41,543 nt of DNA from a virus: the IMG/VR virus record IMGVR_UViG_3300045927_000073, positions 1 through 41,543 of that record; one strand, 5' to 3'. Under the pieces are notes generated by a model. That model did no database searches and was not told the DNA's origin. It was given only the letters and a program-made list of their open reading frames with translations. A program made the translations under genes and the position numbers. Shown here piece by piece: positions 2,849-20,142 of this stretch (position 1 is its first letter; each line of letters begins with the position of its first letter).

Positions 2849-5016
2849 TGGCCGAGACCACTACCCGGATTTACGAGCTACAGGTAAAGCTCGCGCAGGA
2901 TTCGCTCGCGCAACTGAAGAAGCTGCAATCGAGCACGAGCAGCATCGAGCAGGGCTTCAAGGCTGCGGGCGATACCGTCAAGAATTTCGCTCTCGGTCTC
3001 GCGTCCGCTTTCTCGGTCGGCGCGCTCATCTCCGCGATTGACAGCGTAATCACCAAGTTCGATGACATGGCGGCGGCGGCGCAACGCATCGCCATGCCGA
3101 TAGAGGATTTCTCCGCTCTCGCCTACGCCGCGAGTCAGGCGGACCTCGAGATGGCGGACCTCGAGATCGGGCTGAAGGAATTGCAGAAGTCGATGGTCGA
3201 GACGGAGACGAAGGGCGCGAAAGTGCTCGACGTGCTCAAGATCGACAAGACGAAACCGCAGATCGAAGTGCTGAAGGATTTCGCGGAAGCCTTCAAGACG
3301 ATCCAGGACCCGGCGCTCCGCACGAATGCGCTGATCGAAGTGTTCGGCAAGTCCGGGCTGAAGCTGCGCCCGTTGCTGGAACAGGGCGCTGCTGGAATGC
3401 AGAAGCTCATCGAGACGGCGAAGGAATTAGGTCTCGTCGTCAGCGAGGACGCCGCGACGGCGTTCAGCGATCTGGACAACGCGATAAAGACTTCGCAGCA
3501 GCAGACGGCGGCGCTCGGCAAGGAAATGGTGCTCGGATTGCAGCCCGCGTTGATCGACATCCTCGGCGCGTTCACCGGGGCGAAAGAGGGGGCAAGCGCG
3601 TTTGAAGGCGTGGGCAAGGCGCTCGGCGTATTCCTGCGCGGACTCTCTGCCGTCGTGGTTGGCGTCGCGCATGGATTCCGCCAGCTAGGCGAAGTGATCT
3701 ACGGCGTGATGATGACCGCCGCGAATCTGTTCATCGGCGAGCGCACGACCGCAAAGAGCTATTTCGATTCGATGCTCGCCAATCTGGAGAAAAATGATGC
3801 GGCCTACGCGCAGACGCAGAAGCAGATTCTCGGATTCAAGGACGCCACGGATGCGTCAGCCGAAGCGATCACCCATCACGAAGAAGCGGTAAAGAACAAC
3901 GACAAGGCGATACGCAAGGCGCTCTCCACCGACGACAAGAAACCGAAGAAAAAGGAAAAGACGGAATACGAAAAGCTGACCGAATCGCTGGACGATCAGC
4001 TTGCCGCCTTGCAGCGCGTCGAGTCCGAGTATCCAGAACTCGACAAGGCGCTCGCGAAGTATGCCGAATCACTCGCGAAGCTCTCGCCGCAGGAAGCCGA
4101 ACTCGCCTACATCCGCGTGCAGGAAATCGCCGCGATGGAACAGGCGAACAAGAAAACCAAAGAGCTTCGCGACGCGCGCGAGGAACTCGCCAACATCACG
4201 AAATCGCAGCAGACGGAATGGGAAAAGTATCTCGCCGATCTTCAGCGATACGAGGAGCTGATGGCGATCCTGCCAGAGCGCGAGGACGAACTGCGCGAAG
4301 CGATGCGCCGCCGCACCGATGCGTTCCGCGAGGCGAACGACAAGGTGCAGTACGGCGTGAAAAAGGACGATGAACTCATAGAGAAACTCGCGGACAAGAT
4401 CGACGGCTATGCCAAGTCGATGTCGGAATCCCTGATCGATTTCGCGACCGGCGCGCAGGACGCCAAGCACTCGTTTTCCGACATGATGGCTTCGATCCTG
4501 CGCGACATGGCGAAGATGGCGACGCAGATGCTCATCATGGAACCCATGATGAAGCAATTCAAGGATTGGCTGAAGACCGTCGATCTTGCGGGGATGCTCA
4601 CGCCATCGAGCGGACTCGGAGCCGACGTGCCTCCTGGAGGTCCGTGGGCCAAGGGCGGCGTGTTCACGTCGTCGCCGTCGCTGTCGCGATACTCGGGTGG
4701 CGTCTACGACTCGCCGCGCGTGTTCACTTACGCCAAGGGCGCGGGCGTGTTCGCGGAAGCTGGACCGGAAGCGATCATGCCGCTAACGCGCGGACCAGAC
4801 GGATCGCTCGGCGTGGATGCGAGCGGCTCGGGCGTCGTCGTCAACGTCTACAACGAATCGAAGGCGGAAGTCACCACCCAGACGCGAAACGATGTCAATG
4901 GTAGGCGCGTCATCGAACTCATGGTGAAGGACGCCGTGAGCGCGGGCTTCCGCTCGGGCGCGTTCGACGGCGTGATGGGCTCGACCTACGGGCTGAACCG
5001 GCAGGGGGCGCGCTGA
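2848..5016 (+). CDS. Tail tape measure protein
   Basis: A 722-residue protein that should set tail length and be ejected with DNA. Features: heptad-rich helices from the N-terminus, a hydrophobic stretch near residues 45-65 (FALGLASAFSVGALISA), a second one around 265-295, a long highly charged coiled coil at about 355-560 rich in Lys/Glu, and a C-terminal Gly/Ser-rich segment with the pattern typical of lambda-type tape measures (FAEAGPEAIMPLTRGPDGSLGV near residue 640). At roughly 1.5 angstrom per residue, a tail near 100-110 nm would be expected. It is the longest gene between the chaperone and tail-tip genes, as usual. ATG overlaps the upstream stop. Confidence 0.93.
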   Translation: MAETTTRIYELQVKLAQDSLAQLKKLQSSTSSIEQGFKAAGDTVKNFALGLASAFSVGALISAIDSVITKFDDMAAAAQRIAMPIEDFSALAYAASQADLEMADLEIGLKELQKSMVETETKGAKVLDVLKIDKTKPQIEVLKDFAEAFKTIQDPALRTNALIEVFGKSGLKLRPLLEQGAAGMQKLIETAKELGLVVSEDAATAFSDLDNAIKTSQQQTAALGKEMVLGLQPALIDILGAFTGAKEGASAFEGVGKALGVFLRGLSAVVVGVAHGFRQLGEVIYGVMMTAANLFIGERTTAKSYFDSMLANLEKNDAAYAQTQKQILGFKDATDASAEAITHHEEAVKNNDKAIRKALSTDDKKPKKKEKTEYEKLTESLDDQLAALQRVESEYPELDKALAKYAESLAKLSPQEAELAYIRVQEIAAMEQANKKTKELRDAREELANITKSQQTEWEKYLADLQRYEELMAILPEREDELREAMRRRTDAFREANDKVQYGVKKDDELIEKLADKIDGYAKSMSESLIDFATGAQDAKHSFSDMMASILRDMAKMATQMLIMEPMMKQFKDWLKTVDLAGMLTPSSGLGADVPPGGPWAKGGVFTSSPSLSRYSGGVYDSPRVFTYAKGAGVFAEAGPEAIMPLTRGPDGSLGVDASGSGVVVNVYNESKAEVTTQTRNDVNGRRVIELMVKDAVSAGFRSGAFDGVMGSTYGLNRQGAR

Positions 5017-5374: not shown

Positions 5375-5844
5375 GATCGCTTTCCGCCAATGCCGTAGTC
5401 CAGATCAATTCGCTCCAGAGCGGCGCGGCGTGGTTTTATCTCATCGAGATCGCGCACCCGGAGCTCCCCGTTCCCTATCGCTTCGTCAACAATACCGAAG
5501 ATGTCGTCGCGCTCGGCGTCGTGTGGACCCGTTACGAGTTCAGGGTGACGCTCGCCATCGACGACGGGCAGACCCTGCCGAGCGCGGAAGTCGAGTTCAC
5601 CAACGTCGACCGCGTGCTGATCGACGTGATCCGCGGCCTCGCGAGCGCGCCGACCATCAACCTCTATGCCGTGCTGTCGATGACGCCGGACGTGATCGAG
5701 CAGAGCCTCACCGACATGCAGCTGATGGATATCAGCTACGACATGCAGACGATCAGCGGGCGCCTCGTGTCGGGCGACTTGCTCAACGCGCCCTATCCCG
5801 CGGACAGCTACGACCCCGCCCAATTTCCGGGCATCTTTTTCTGA
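5371..5844 (+). CDS. DUF1833 family tail-tip protein (lambda gpL position)
   Basis: A 157-residue protein. GTG at 5371 is chosen because it overlaps the previous stop as GTGA; the upstream in-frame extension is only a shadow of the gpM-like gene. The C-terminal segment (DMQLMDISYDMQT...LLNAPYPADSYD...FPGIF) matches what I know of DUF1833 proteins, which occupy the gpL place in tail modules without a standard gpL. The expected role is an adaptor between tape measure, NlpC/P60 protein and central tip protein. No iron-sulfur cysteines of the gpL type are seen. Confidence 0.78.
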   Translation: MRSLSANAVVQINSLQSGAAWFYLIEIAHPELPVPYRFVNNTEDVVALGVVWTRYEFRVTLAIDDGQTLPSAEVEFTNVDRVLIDVIRGLASAPTINLYAVLSMTPDVIEQSLTDMQLMDISYDMQTISGRLVSGDLLNAPYPADSYDPAQFPGIFF

Positions 5845-6239
5845 TGCGCGATTTCACCCGCTACGTCGGCATTCCCTACAAGGACAAGGGCACCGATCCG
5901 GCGACCGGACTCGACTGCTGGCAGCTCGTGCGCTACTTCCACAAGCAGGAGCTCGGGCGCGAGCTCCCCGACTACCTGGCGCTCTATGACTCCTCGCTTG
6001 ATCCGGACTCGGCGAGCGGCGCCTTCGTTCGTGCGATTCCCGACTGGCGGGCGGTGGACCCGCCGGCGTTCGGGGATGTCCTCATCTTTCGCATCGCGCG
6101 CGGGCCCTGGCACTGCGCGGTCTATCTCGAGGAAGGGAAGATGCTGCACATCGACCAGGGGCACAACTCGGTCATCGAGTCGGTGGACAGCCTGCGCTGG
6201 CGAAACCGTATCTACGGGGTGTATCGGTGGAAGTCCTGA
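5844..6239 (+). CDS. Tail-tip NlpC/P60 peptidase (lambda gpK-like)
   Basis: A 131-residue papain-fold cysteine peptidase of the C40 family. The nucleophile lies in GLDCWQL (Cys about residue 25) and the general base in GPWHCAVYL (His about residue 90); a polar third residue follows near the HIDQGHNS segment. Proteins of this type sit in the tail tip and are thought to cut peptidoglycan peptide during DNA entry or assist tip assembly. Unlike lambda gpK it lacks the N-terminal JAB/MPN domain, a common reduced form in phages with DUF1833 proteins. ATG overlaps the upstream stop by one base (TGATG); the end overlaps the gpJ-like gene by 13 bases. Confidence 0.88.
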   Translation: MRDFTRYVGIPYKDKGTDPATGLDCWQLVRYFHKQELGRELPDYLALYDSSLDPDSASGAFVRAIPDWRAVDPPAFGDVLIFRIARGPWHCAVYLEEGKMLHIDQGHNSVIESVDSLRWRNRIYGVYRWKS

Positions 6240-11977: not shown

Positions 11978-12278
11978 CTGCGGTGTCGACGGGTCCTCTC
12001 AAGGCGGCGTCAACCCCTGGCGGCTTGCCACGGTGGCGAGCGCTGCAGCCGGATGGGCTGCCTAATATTCGTTCGCCGCTACGTTGTGCTTCAAGGGGTT
12101 ACCGGCCCCTAACTTGCGGTCGAATATTAGGCGGAACAGCATCGGTTTGTCATACAAATCATGACTGAACGTCTTTTTTTCTCAATTATCGCCGACAATG
12201 CGCAACGCCTAAAAACGACTGTAAGTCATTGATTTTAAGATGTGTGAAAGCCTGAATATTAGGCACGCCTAATATTGC
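11978..12278. other. Non-coding region after the late genes: probable attP region
   Basis: About 300 bases with no supported gene, immediately downstream of the integrase gene, where lambda-type phages keep attP. It contains the 10-mer GCCTAATATT in both orientations: 12060-12069 (+), 12123-12132 (-), 12255-12264 (-) and 12267-12276 (+). These look like integrase arm sites. Between the second and third lies an AT-richer stretch (12165-12250) with a T7 run, a candidate core region. The exact crossover sequence cannot be named without the bacterial attB. Confidence 0.6.
12255..12276. repeat. Inverted repeat of the 10-bp motif AATATTAGGC / GCCTAATATT
   Basis: Two perfect 10-bp arms separated by two bases (AC), ending two bases before the integrase stop codon. 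The loop is too short for an efficient terminator hairpin, so a protein-binding site for a dimer (integrase arm or directionality factor) is more likely. Two further single copies lie at 12060-12069 and 12123-12132. Confidence 0.75.
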
Positions 12279-13295
12279 TCACGCCGTACGCAGCATCTGC
12301 GGCCCCTGCACGATCTCCACTTCGCGCCCGCGCAGGTAAATCCTGGTGGTCCTCTCGTCGGTGTGGCCAAGCACTTTCTGCGCGCTCAGTCCTTGACGCT
12401 GCGCTTCCGTAGCGGCGAACGCGCGGCTGTCGCGCATCTGCACGTCCTTTACGTCGGTCTTGCGGACAGCATCGAGCCAATCGCTCAAGATCGTTTTGTA
12501 GGCTGGCCTGCGAGCGCCGAGCGCCCTGAACAGGTAGCGCGGCCGATGCTTGATCGCGATGCTGGGTACGTTGCCGTGCAACGCGCGGCAGCGCGCGACC
12601 CACTCCCGGAGCTGCGGGTTCCACGCGATGATGATCTCCTTCTTCGTCTTCTTCTGGCGAAAGTAGATGCCAGGGCCGTCGTCCAGGATGTTCCGCTCGT
12701 CAATCCCGATCACGTCATCCACGCGCTGGTCGGTCAGGAACATCCCATCCATGATTCCCTTCAGGCGGGCGTTGGCGGCGTCGTAGATGGTGTCCCACTC
12801 GTCCTGCTTGATAAGCCGAGTCCGACGCCCCTTGGGATAGAAGGAGAGCCCGAGGAACGGGTTCCACGATACCACCTTGTCGTCGCGGAACACGGAGAAG
12901 ACCACGCGCCCGAACGAGATCACGCGATTAGCCATGCCTGGCGTGTCGGCCAGCAGCGCCTTCACGTCCGCCGCATCCTCGGGCCTCACGTAGCGCGGAT
13001 GCGGCTTGGCGCGGAGCATGTCCTTCAGGATCTCGGCGCACTCGCCATACTGGCGCTTCGTGTTCTCGGCCAGTGGCTTTACCTTACGCGAGGTGATCCT
13101 TGCCAAAGCCGCGTCGATCAGCTCGCCCAATTCGCCCGATGACCGGCGCAAGCTCTGCGCGTATTCCGCGTGGGCATCCGCCTGCGTCCCCACCCTGCGC
13201 CACTTGTTGCCCTTGACGTGATACACCGCGCCGTGACTCTCGACGTAGCACGGGGGCAGTGTAGAAGGATTCTTCCTGGGTCTGCCTCGGGGCAT
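12279..13295 (-). CDS. int: Tyrosine-type site-specific integrase
   Basis: A 338-residue tyrosine recombinase that should integrate the phage at attB and, with a directionality factor, excise it. The N-terminus is basic (MPRGRPRKNP), followed by an arm/core-binding helical region. Catalytic landmarks: the first Arg in LTDQRVDDVIGI (about residue 195), Lys in the beta-hairpin QKKTKKEIII, the Arg box DSRAFAATEAQ where the usual His is replaced by Asp, LGHTDERTT, and the nucleophile Tyr in RIYLRG near residue 322. The gene is last in the leftward early operon and lies next to the probable attP. The start overlaps the upstream ORF in another frame. Confidence 0.93.
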   Translation of the reverse strand: MPRGRPRKNPSTLPPCYVESHGAVYHVKGNKWRRVGTQADAHAEYAQSLRRSSGELGELIDAALARITSRKVKPLAENTKRQYGECAEILKDMLRAKPHPRYVRPEDAADVKALLADTPGMANRVISFGRVVFSVFRDDKVVSWNPFLGLSFYPKGRRTRLIKQDEWDTIYDAANARLKGIMDGMFLTDQRVDDVIGIDERNILDDGPGIYFRQKKTKKEIIIAWNPQLREWVARCRALHGNVPSIAIKHRPRYLFRALGARRPAYKTILSDWLDAVRKTDVKDVQMRDSRAFAATEAQRQGLSAQKVLGHTDERTTRIYLRGREVEIVQGPQMLRTA

Positions 13296-16934: not shown

Positions 16935-17100
16935 TCAGGGCCGTCCAGGCGGGCCCAGGTGCGGGCCTCATGTCGAGCATGCGGCTGCACTAGCTCCTTG
17001 GTTCGCGCTTCATGCTCAGTTCCGGAGTGCAGCTCGATTTCCGCCAGCATCTTCTCGAATTGAGCCTTTGTCGGTTTCTTGGCCCATCACGTCTTTCACT

Positions 17101-17313
17101 CTACTCGCGTTCTCCAATTTCAGAGAACCGCTTCATCTCTTGCCGAAATATCTTCTGCGCTTCTTCTTTGGTGTCACCCGTGACTCCAACCGCCAGCGGC
17201 CAGCCCTCCGGGGTAAGCGCCAGCCAGCCCCCGCAACGTCGCTCTATCAAGAGCGGCTGAACCGCGAATAGCGCGTGATTTTCGCTCATATGGCGTTCCC
17301 AAAAGGAGTTCAT
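17101..17313 (-). CDS. Small hypothetical protein (HicB-like fold possible)
   Basis: A 70-residue ORF (alternative start at 17289). The core RRCGGWLALTPEGWPLAVGVTGDTKEEAQKIF resembles a widespread bacterial family of small proteins with a GW.A.sPe...iGV.G.T.eEA pattern that may have a HicB-like fold. No HicA-type toxin is adjacent. It lies divergent to the DUF5343 gene across an AT-rich 137-base interval. The start is preceded only by a weak GGGG. Confidence 0.55.
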   Translation of the reverse strand: MNSFWERHMSENHALFAVQPLLIERRCGGWLALTPEGWPLAVGVTGDTKEEAQKIFRQEMKRFSEIGERE

Positions 17314-17356
17314 GACCCCGCTACTTTAAATTTATTTAAACAACTAAATCAAGTAT

Positions 17357-17426
17357 TTGACTTGGTTCTGATACTCTTGGTACTTGCTAGAACCAAAAAC
17401 CAAGATATAATGCGCCCGTTACCAAG
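17357..17426 (+). promoter_or_regulatory. Promoter with an array of CTTGGT / ACCAAG half-sites
   Basis: Upstream of the DUF5343 gene: -35 TTGCTA (17384-17389), 16-base spacer, perfect -10 TATAAT (17406-17411). Half-sites CTTGGT at 17361-17366 and 17376-17381 and the inverse ACCAAG at 17399-17404 and 17421-17426 surround it; TTGGTTCT (17362-17369) and AGAACCAA (17389-17396) form an 8-bp inverted repeat. The arrangement suggests control by a dedicated regulator, distinct from the phage repressor. Confidence 0.65.
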
Positions 17427-17450
17427 AGACGAACCATGATGGAGTAGTGG

Positions 17451-18161
17451 ATGGCGCTCACCTCCAACGGCAATGCCCCTTACACGCCAGCGGCAACGCT
17501 GGTGAACTTGGTCAAGCGGTTCCGCGATAAGGGTCTCTCATTTCCCGTCACCGTAGACGTTCTAGTTCGTGCGGGCGTTCCCGAAAGCCTCGGAACGCGC
17601 ACGCTGCAATCGCTTCAATTGCTCGAACTTATCGACGAGGCGGGCAATGCTACCGAGACCTTGAAGCGGATTCGTGAGGCCCCCGAGAAGGATTACAAAG
17701 CGACCCTCGCGGCGTGGCTCAAGCGCGTGTACGCCGAGGTCTTTAAGTTCGCTGATCCTGGCGCAGAGGATGAGACGGAAGTGCGCGACGCATTCCGTAC
17801 GTTCGTCCCCCACGCGCAGCAGGACCGCATGGTAAAGCTATTCATGGCGCTATGCGCCGAGGCGGGATTAGCCCCCGAAAGCAAGAAGGCGGAGGCAAAG
17901 CCGCGCGTCCGGATAGCAGCAACGCCGTCGTCGGCATCGACGCAGAGCCCGCGCGTGGTCGTCCGTAAGACGGCCCAGACCCCACACTCGGAAGTGTTGC
18001 GCCCCGGGTCGCTGCCGCCGGAGCTGGCTGGCCTGATGGCCCGCCTGCCGCAGAACGGCTGGACCCAGCCCACTCGTGACCGGTTCCTGAAAACCTTCGA
18101 ATCCGTCTTGGATTACGTCATCCCGGTCGTGGAGAAGCAGCCGGAGGAGAACACTCAATAA
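17451..18161 (+). CDS. DUF5343 family protein
   Basis: A 236-residue soluble protein. The N-terminal about 140 residues fit the DUF5343 pattern as I know it: TPAATLVNLVKRFRDKGL...LVRAGVPES...TLQSLQLLELID, a winged-helix-like unit, then helical WLKRVYAEVFKF and DAFRTFVPHAQQDRMVKLFMALCAEAG. A Ser/Thr/Pro-rich linker (about 150-185) leads to a short C-terminal helical domain. Molecular function of the family is not established to my knowledge; its members often lie in variable islands. It has its own promoter, is followed after 7 bases by the tRNA-like gene and then by the methyltransferase-nuclease gene. ATG is preceded by GGAG at seven bases. Confidence 0.8.
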   Translation: MALTSNGNAPYTPAATLVNLVKRFRDKGLSFPVTVDVLVRAGVPESLGTRTLQSLQLLELIDEAGNATETLKRIREAPEKDYKATLAAWLKRVYAEVFKFADPGAEDETEVRDAFRTFVPHAQQDRMVKLFMALCAEAGLAPESKKAEAKPRVRIAATPSSASTQSPRVVVRKTAQTPHSEVLRPGSLPPELAGLMARLPQNGWTQPTRDRFLKTFESVLDYVIPVVEKQPEENTQ

Positions 18162-18168
18162 CGACTAC

Positions 18169-18285
18169 GACGGGGTGGCAGATTGGGAATGCAGCGGCCT
18201 GCAAAGCCGCGTTGCGCCTCTCGGTTCACAGTTGCCGCTGGGCTCCGATGCGCAAGAAGTTGGTTCGATTCCAACCCCCGTCTCC
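18169..18285 (+). tRNA. tRNA-Cys(GCA)-like gene with a 44-nt hairpin inserted in the variable loop
   Basis: Acceptor 18169-18175 GACGGGG pairs fully with 18276-18282 CCCCGTC; position 73 is T (18283), the cysteine-tRNA identity base, followed by CC but not CCA. D-stem GCA/TGC (18178-18180, 18190-18192) with a GGG-containing loop; a G-A 13-22 mismatch. Anticodon stem GCGGC/GCCGC perfect, loop CTGCAAA giving anticodon GCA (18201-18203). T-arm GTTGG-TTCGATT-CCAAC (18259-18275) perfect. Between anticodon arm and T-arm are 48 bases where 4-5 are usual: G, a hairpin TTGCGC (18212-18217) / GCGCAA (18250-18255) with inner TCGG/CCGA, then GAA. Without the hairpin the variable loop would be a normal 4 bases. 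A normal tRNA scan may miss it. Confidence 0.72.
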
Positions 18286-18375
18286 TTCTTCCAGTATACC
18301 GCATCATCACCTTGACCATCTCTACGCGGCGGCCTTGATCTGGGCGCGGATCACCAATTCATCGTAGGGGGGGCA

Positions 18376-19989
18376 GTGAACTCACTATATTTCGGCGACA
18401 ACCTAGAAGTTCTGCGGGAGTCCATCAAGGACGAATCGGTGGACCTCATCTACCTAGACCCGCCATTCAACAGCAACGCTACCTACAACGTTCTTTTTAA
18501 GACACCGAAAGGTCATCGGTCAGACGCGCAAATCGAAGCGTTCGATGACACTTGGCACTGGGGTGAACATGCTGAGGCGGTTTTCGCCGACCTCATGCAG
18601 CAGTCAAATACCGACGTGGCAGAAGTCACTCGTGCGCTAAGGTCTGTTCTTGGTGAAAACGACATGATGGCGTATCTCGCCATGATGGCCAGCCGGTTGT
18701 TAGAACTGCATCGAGTGTTAAGGTCAACCGGAAGCCTTTACCTGCATTGCGATCCCACGGCAAGCCATTACCTCAAGATCGTGCTCGACCAAGTGTTCGG
18801 CGCAGATAATTTTCAGAATGAGATTATCTGGAAACGCACAAGTGCGCACAGCAGCGCCAAGCGTTACGGCCCGGTTCACGACACTATTTTGTTCTATTCG
18901 AAGACGCCAGATTATCGGTGGATACCGTCATTTACCGCTTATGACTCCCAGTACTTGGAGATGTTTTTTGACCAAACCGACGCTGATGGAAGGCGCTGGA
19001 AACGAATGGACCTGACGGGAGCAGGGACGCGCAACGGCGAGACTGGCCTGGTATGGCGAGGAATAGATGTTACGGCGAAAGGTCGGCATTGGGCTCATCC
19101 GCCTCGCGTGCTTGAAGAGATGGATGCCAATGGCAGAATTCATTGGCCTCAGAAAGAGGCCGGGATGCCACGTCTAAAGCAATATCCAGAAGACCTTCGC
19201 GGCGTTCCGCTGCAAGACATCTTTGCGGACATCCGTCCAATGCACAACTTGTCTGACGAGCGACTCGGGTATCCAACGCAGAAGCCACTCGCCTTGCTTG
19301 AACGAATCATCGCTGCATCGTCCAAGGAAGACGATACAGTACTTGACCCTTTTTGCGGATGCGGCACTGCCGTTCACGCAGCCGAAAAGCTCAAACGCCA
19401 GTGGATCGGTATTGATGTCACCCATCTCGCTATTTCTCTCATTGAGAAACGTCTGCGCGACGCATTCCCAGGCATCGCCTTTGATGTCCACGGCACGCCA
19501 AAAGATTTTGGCGGGGCAAGAAACCTTGCCGAGCGTGACAAATACCAATTCCAATGGTGGGCATGCTCGCTGGTCAACGCGCAACCATTCCGCGGAAAGA
19601 AAAAGGGAGCTGATAGCGGTATAGATGGCCTTATCTATTTTCAGGATGACGACAAGTCACCGAAAAAGATCGTGGTCAGCGTGAAGGGGGGCGATAACGT
19701 CGGCGTAGCGATGCTGCGCGATTTCGCCCATGTGATTGACCGCGAAAAGGCTGCAATGGGTCTCTTTGTGACGCTAACAGAGCCGACAAAGAACATGACG
19801 AGGGAAGGCGTCGGGACCGGTTATTACACTTCGCCGTTAAGCGGCGCCAAGTTCCCAAAGCTCCAGGTGCTGACAGTCGAGGGATTGCTAGCCGGGACCG
19901 AGCAAGCCCGTTATCCCCGCATGGACGCTGGCGGGCTGACGTTCAAGAAGGCCAAAGAGAACGAACCGGAGCAGAAAAAACTCTTGTAA
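18376..19989 (+). CDS. DNA N6-adenine methyltransferase fused to Mrr-like nuclease domain
   Basis: A 537-residue fusion. The N-terminal about 370 residues form a beta-class amino-methyltransferase: motif IV DPPF at 28-31 precedes the SAM motif DPFCGCGTA at 324-332, with the recognition domain between. The C-terminal about 150 residues look like a PD-(D/E)XK domain of the Mrr type: DSGIDG at 413-418 and IVVSVKGG with Lys 437; the usual Glu/Gln of (E/Q)xK is Ser here, so nuclease activity is uncertain. A single-chain restriction-modification enzyme or a phage protection methylase with a regulatory domain are both possible. GTG start at 18376 follows a G-rich run. GC content is lower than in the structural genes, suggesting transfer. 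Confidence 0.85.
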   Translation: MNSLYFGDNLEVLRESIKDESVDLIYLDPPFNSNATYNVLFKTPKGHRSDAQIEAFDDTWHWGEHAEAVFADLMQQSNTDVAEVTRALRSVLGENDMMAYLAMMASRLLELHRVLRSTGSLYLHCDPTASHYLKIVLDQVFGADNFQNEIIWKRTSAHSSAKRYGPVHDTILFYSKTPDYRWIPSFTAYDSQYLEMFFDQTDADGRRWKRMDLTGAGTRNGETGLVWRGIDVTAKGRHWAHPPRVLEEMDANGRIHWPQKEAGMPRLKQYPEDLRGVPLQDIFADIRPMHNLSDERLGYPTQKPLALLERIIAASSKEDDTVLDPFCGCGTAVHAAEKLKRQWIGIDVTHLAISLIEKRLRDAFPGIAFDVHGTPKDFGGARNLAERDKYQFQWWACSLVNAQPFRGKKKGADSGIDGLIYFQDDDKSPKKIVVSVKGGDNVGVAMLRDFAHVIDREKAAMGLFVTLTEPTKNMTREGVGTGYYTSPLSGAKFPKLQVLTVEGLLAGTEQARYPRMDAGGLTFKKAKENEPEQKKLL

Positions 19990-20142
19990 CAGAGGTTATC
20001 TCAAACTGTACCAGCACCCAAACGCGGGCCGCCGATTTGATCCTCCTACGCAGCGGCCCCACCGGCCCGCGCCGCCGGTCAGTCAGGAGGGGCTAGGCGG
20101 GGAAGGGGAAGGAGAGCTCGGGAGAAGCGCGCCTGGCTGCGA

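Follow-up and report, generated by a model that had tools for sequence, protein, structure and literature searches.

The 41.5-kb virus record IMGVR_UViG_3300045927_000073 (41,543 nt; the whole of this stretch is called the window here) carries a tRNA-Cys gene in which a hairpin of 44 nt interrupts the variable (V) region of a class-I core (Table 1). The gene at 18169-18283(+) was recognized by the covariance model RF00005 with 50.2 bits (E=2.1e-9, 1.5 kb searched; family cut-off 29 bits), and the alignment is full length (model positions 1-71), with all of the extra bases placed exactly 3' of the anticodon stem and 5' of the T stem. The first-pass annotation, which had proposed folding the gene with such a model, described a tRNA-Cys-like gene whose variable loop holds an inserted hairpin, and this description is borne out: the coordinates, the perfect acceptor, anticodon and T stems (7/7, 5/5 and 5/5, that is 17/17 Watson-Crick pairs), the GCA anticodon, T73, and the 48-nt V region with its 6-bp TTGCGC/GCGCAA helix are all as it had them. 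The best reading, to which we give about an even chance, is that of a phage-borne tRNA-Cys with a class-I core that retains the hairpin as an oversized V arm.

Table 1. Parts of the tRNA-Cys gene and neighbouring features (positions in the window).
Feature	Position	Strand	Remarks
Promoter-like site TTGCTA-16-TATAAT	17384..17411	+	Upstream of DUF5343; 10/12 matches; 1 found vs 0.5 expected in shuffles
DUF5343 protein, 236 aa	17451..18161	+	Pfam PF17278, 71 bits; weak PADLOC PDC-M34A match
Acceptor stem, 5' strand GACGGGG (positions 1-7)	18169..18175	+	7/7 Watson-Crick with 18276-18282
D arm GCAGATTGGGAATGC	18178..18192	+	3-bp stem, A14, G18 G19, T15; from RF00005 alignment and comparison with ordinary tRNA-Cys D arms
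Anticodon arm GCGGC-CTGCAAA-GCCGC	18194..18210	+	Anticodon GCA at 18201-18203
V region, 48 nt	18211..18258	+	4 nt in most tRNA-Cys
Inserted 44-nt hairpin	18212..18255	+	Outer helix TTGCGC (18212-18217) / GCGCAA (18250-18255); inner pairing weaker
T arm GTTGG-TTCGATT-CCAAC	18259..18275	+	
Acceptor stem, 3' strand CCCCGTC, then discriminator T73 and CCT	18276..18286	+	T73 at 18283
N6/N4 DNA methyltransferase with C-terminal Mrr-type nuclease domain, 537 aa	18376..19989	+	

In bacteria, U73 and the GCA anticodon are the major determinants of cysteine identity, to which G2-C71 and C3-G70 also contribute (PMC9976931). The window tRNA has both major determinants as well as C3-G70, while A2-U71 replaces G2-C71; its acceptor branch is of the 7/5 type and its D arm is that of a class-I cysteine tRNA. 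Its likeness to a tRNA is far above chance, as a relaxed cloverleaf scan for V regions of 26-70 nt across the 5.36 Mb of fetched sequence returned only three tRNAs, namely the window gene and two from other phages, L201 (V 30 nt, anticodon UAA) and L491 (V 36 nt, anticodon UCU), of which the covariance model confirmed the latter and not the former. Compared with ordinary bacterial class-I tRNA-Cys, the gene shares the core, the stem lengths, GCA and U73, but its V region has 48 rather than 4 nt, position 15 is U where a purine is usual, position 48 is A, neither base being as in the ordinary tRNA-Cys fetched, and CCA is not encoded, the gene ending in T73-CCT.

Deletion of 18212-18255 restores a perfect class-I cloverleaf with a V loop of four bases (G + GAA), as the first-pass annotation had noted. 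Since four nucleotides is the commonest V length (25 of the 32 ordinary U73/GCA tRNA-Cys at the fetched loci), and since the joined core is ~80% identical to the nearest ordinary tRNA-Cys over 54 nt without a gap, the simplest history is that an ordinary tRNA-Cys took up the extra bases in one clean insertion. The base of the hairpin directly abuts the anticodon stem. Its outer helix is probably real, because six terminal Watson-Crick pairs arise in 0.04% of shuffles with exact ends and in 0.75% when the ends may shift. The inner pairing carries little weight as evidence: the folding energy of the 44-nt insert (-17.4 kcal/mol) is equalled by 51 of 1000 dinucleotide shuffles and is thus modestly better than chance. 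With 48 nt and a 6-bp outer helix the V region falls into class II, for which at least 10 nt forming a stem are taken, and it exceeds the 4-23 nt over which V regions of tRNAs usually range (PMC5733544). A role as a terminator was rejected, no terminator-like site having been found.

That exact removal yields a normal 4-nt V loop is what would be expected if the insert were taken out by splicing, or by cleavage and re-ligation, to give a normal 73-nt tRNA. This is nevertheless highly improbable, given that the region 18195-18275 matched no intron or ribozyme family even at E<=10 (only tRNA-type models and chance-level Rfam matches were obtained), that the minimum-energy fold is a plain hairpin in which, judged from the fold alone, no bulge-helix-bulge occurs at the insert borders, and that a review of bacterial tRNA introns lists them only at the anticodon loop (PMC4033280).

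A search for the same insert elsewhere, which had also been proposed, gave no counterpart. In a complete scan of 2.9 million viral contigs the pattern TGCAAA-N28-58-GGTTCGANTCC-N10-TCC matched 71 stretches, and the good tRNAs among them, after their stems were checked, have V regions of 20-22 nt; a second tRNA-Cys of the window's kind was not among them. Two wider pattern scans of viral contigs for GCA tRNAs with a long V region, as well as one of 369 genomes of one class, gave none of the window's kind among the matches listed, while a pattern scan of genome contigs gave, among the matches listed, selC*-like and other long-armed tRNA-Cys. Taken over all pattern scans, the matches listed were class-II and selC*-like tRNA-Cys, pairs of neighbouring tRNAs and matches due to chance. 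Against phages and plasmids, BLASTN gave no more than partial matches to tRNA-Cys. Searches anchored on neighbouring genes found no such tRNA at the methyltransferase (79 loci), the phrog_3657 gene (78 loci) or the phrog_9226 gene (4 loci); the search via the integrase gave no matches, and that via DUF5343 no confirmed locus. Among the records searched, the window tRNA is so far a singleton.

The lack of a second case in the complete scan of viral contigs is in keeping with the main rival, a freshly interrupted tRNA-Cys pseudogene, in which a small palindromic element landed in the V loop, or replication slippage expanded it, leaving a non-functional gene whose stems have yet to decay. We regard this as a tentative possibility, and a serious one because engineered V-loop inserts are marginal, position 15 is unusual and no CCA is encoded: in ‘V-Spinach’ tRNAs, which carry an aptamer within the V loop, tRNA activity was only marginal, and inserts engineered at this place usually lose activity (PMC7590224). 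The modest folding energy of the insert would likewise fit a pseudogene. On the other hand, all 17 stem pairs are intact, the base of the hairpin neatly meets the anticodon stem, and the window holds no further copy of the insert.

Long V arms on tRNA-Cys are not themselves without parallel, and the earlier view that long variable arms are absent from bacterial tRNA-Cys proved wrong in general. The selC* tRNA-Cys has one (PMC7609411), sharing cysteine identity and the long arm with the window tRNA but having an acceptor branch of 8/4 instead of 7/5. Class-II tRNA-Cys with GCA, U73, a 7/5 branch and V regions of about 20-22 nt were found in L135, L204, L214, L217, L220, L224, L238, L245, L256 and others, mostly tRNA-rich large viral contigs, and ARAGORN calls a tRNA-Cys at the class-II site in 8/8 such loci examined. 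These tRNAs of large phages have the cysteine anticodon, U73, a V arm and a phage genome in common with the window tRNA, which differs from them by its class-I D arm, its V region of 48 nt, and the presence of no other tRNA in the window. A third parallel is man-made: in V-Spinach and V-arm aptamer-tagged tRNAs a hairpin is placed at the variable loop or arm as in the window, and hairpins engineered at the tip of the V arm can leave the tRNA translationally active, in contrast to the marginal V-loop inserts (PMC7590224). A class-I core bearing a V arm of 48 nt is still exceptional.

In the viral contig L491 (70.8 kb) a match to RNase P class A RNA (4070-4332(-), 131.8 bits) is surrounded by a cluster of about 28 tRNAs; it adjoins a tRNA with the anticodon UCU, U73 and a V arm of 36 nt. 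Extra nucleotides in the anticodon loop were seen in the viral-contig tRNAs L220:9382-9549(-) (about 96) and L238:1926-2036(-) (about 39), both missed by ARAGORN, and L220 has two more oversize tRNA matches (5835-5955 and 3716-3871). A GOLLD RNA match (174 bits) is located at L256:8087-8514(+), in a tRNA-rich viral contig.

Retention of the hairpin as an oversized V arm is favoured because RF00005 reaches its score despite the insert, with every stem pair, GCA and U73 in place, because long V arms occur in the class-II tRNA-Cys (20-22 nt) and in the UCU tRNA of L491 (36 nt), and because tRNAs with an aptamer at the V-arm tip can stay active (PMC7590224). It is weakened by the single copy without a homologue among the records searched, by the marginal activity of V-Spinach (PMC7590224), by U15, A48, A2-U71 and the unencoded CCA, and by cysteine codons that are not enriched in the phage (98 in about 9,770, mostly TGC), which also led us to reject a role in codon supply. 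Since the V region is the most length-variable part of a tRNA, long-armed tRNA-Cys exist and U73, GCA and C3-G70 are present, we infer that the tRNA is most likely charged and keeps its hairpin, which in the mature molecule would form an oversized variable arm directed away from the core. The tRNA would be cut from a transcript probably shared with the DUF5343 and methyltransferase genes, CCA would be added enzymatically, and cysteine would be charged via U73 and GCA. Its likeliest use would be that of a cysteine tRNA, either additional or altered, which the host's tRNA-acting enzymes handle less well. That it is a functional natural tRNA of unprecedented V-arm length whose hairpin is a working module, either a protein docking site or a shield against tRNA-cutting defences, seems unlikely.

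The gene lies between the DUF5343 gene and the methyltransferase-nuclease gene, as the earlier description had it. Seven bases separate the DUF5343 stop codon from the tRNA, alignments of homologues of the methyltransferase-Mrr protein begin at about 18376-18379, and the promoter-like site upstream of DUF5343 may also drive the tRNA. Much of 17000-20000 has a G+C content of about 0.47-0.56, and 17500-18250 stands out with 0.58-0.65, a profile that suggests an acquired cassette. With such neighbours, a DUF5343 protein that weakly matches a candidate defence family and a methyltransferase-Mrr fusion, and with cysteine codon use that gives no call for an extra tRNA, the tRNA could belong to a small defence or counter-defence cassette with both proteins and act against host anticodon nucleases, or against toxins that target tRNA, as a decoy or as a substitute that resists the nuclease. 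We consider this quite improbable: the anticodon loop is ordinary and no nuclease was identified, no tRNA was found just upstream of the methyltransferase gene in the homologue loci checked in other viral contigs, and none adjoins DUF5343 in the window's layout at five loci from genomes. The methyltransferase homologues thus reveal no conserved linkage that would back a joint function, and specific evidence was found for none of the functions first put forward (decoy, splicing, regulatory RNA). Immediately downstream of homologues of the methyltransferase-Mrr gene, tRNA genes were seen at L022:7746-8080 and L048:7691-7765, possibly as integration sites.

The window tRNA is a genuine and unusual case that has so far been seen once. 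Should the RNA prove to be charged and used, it would show that evolution can add a 44-nt hairpin to a tRNA of class I with function preserved, where engineers struggled, and it would be a warning that standard tRNA finders overlook such cases, ARAGORN having called no tRNA anywhere in the window. As a pseudogene it would be no more than a minor curiosity.

The record is that of a temperate, HK97-like phage. Its genes for tail, terminase, head and portal, together with an integrase, a helicase and a repressor-like gene, mark it as temperate and tailed. Relatives of its terminase occur in HK97-like phages and many others, and the closest relatives of its integrase in Bordetella and Pseudomonas phages, which together suggest a proteobacterial host. 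An origin of the tRNA as an attachment site is unlikely, as its 3' part has no second copy in the window and the integrase, with repeated CCTAATATT sites on its flanks, is 5 kb distant. Beside the integrase gene, at 12030-12280 of the window, the CCTAATATT and AATATTAGG motifs are repeated and possibly represent arm sites of the phage attachment site.
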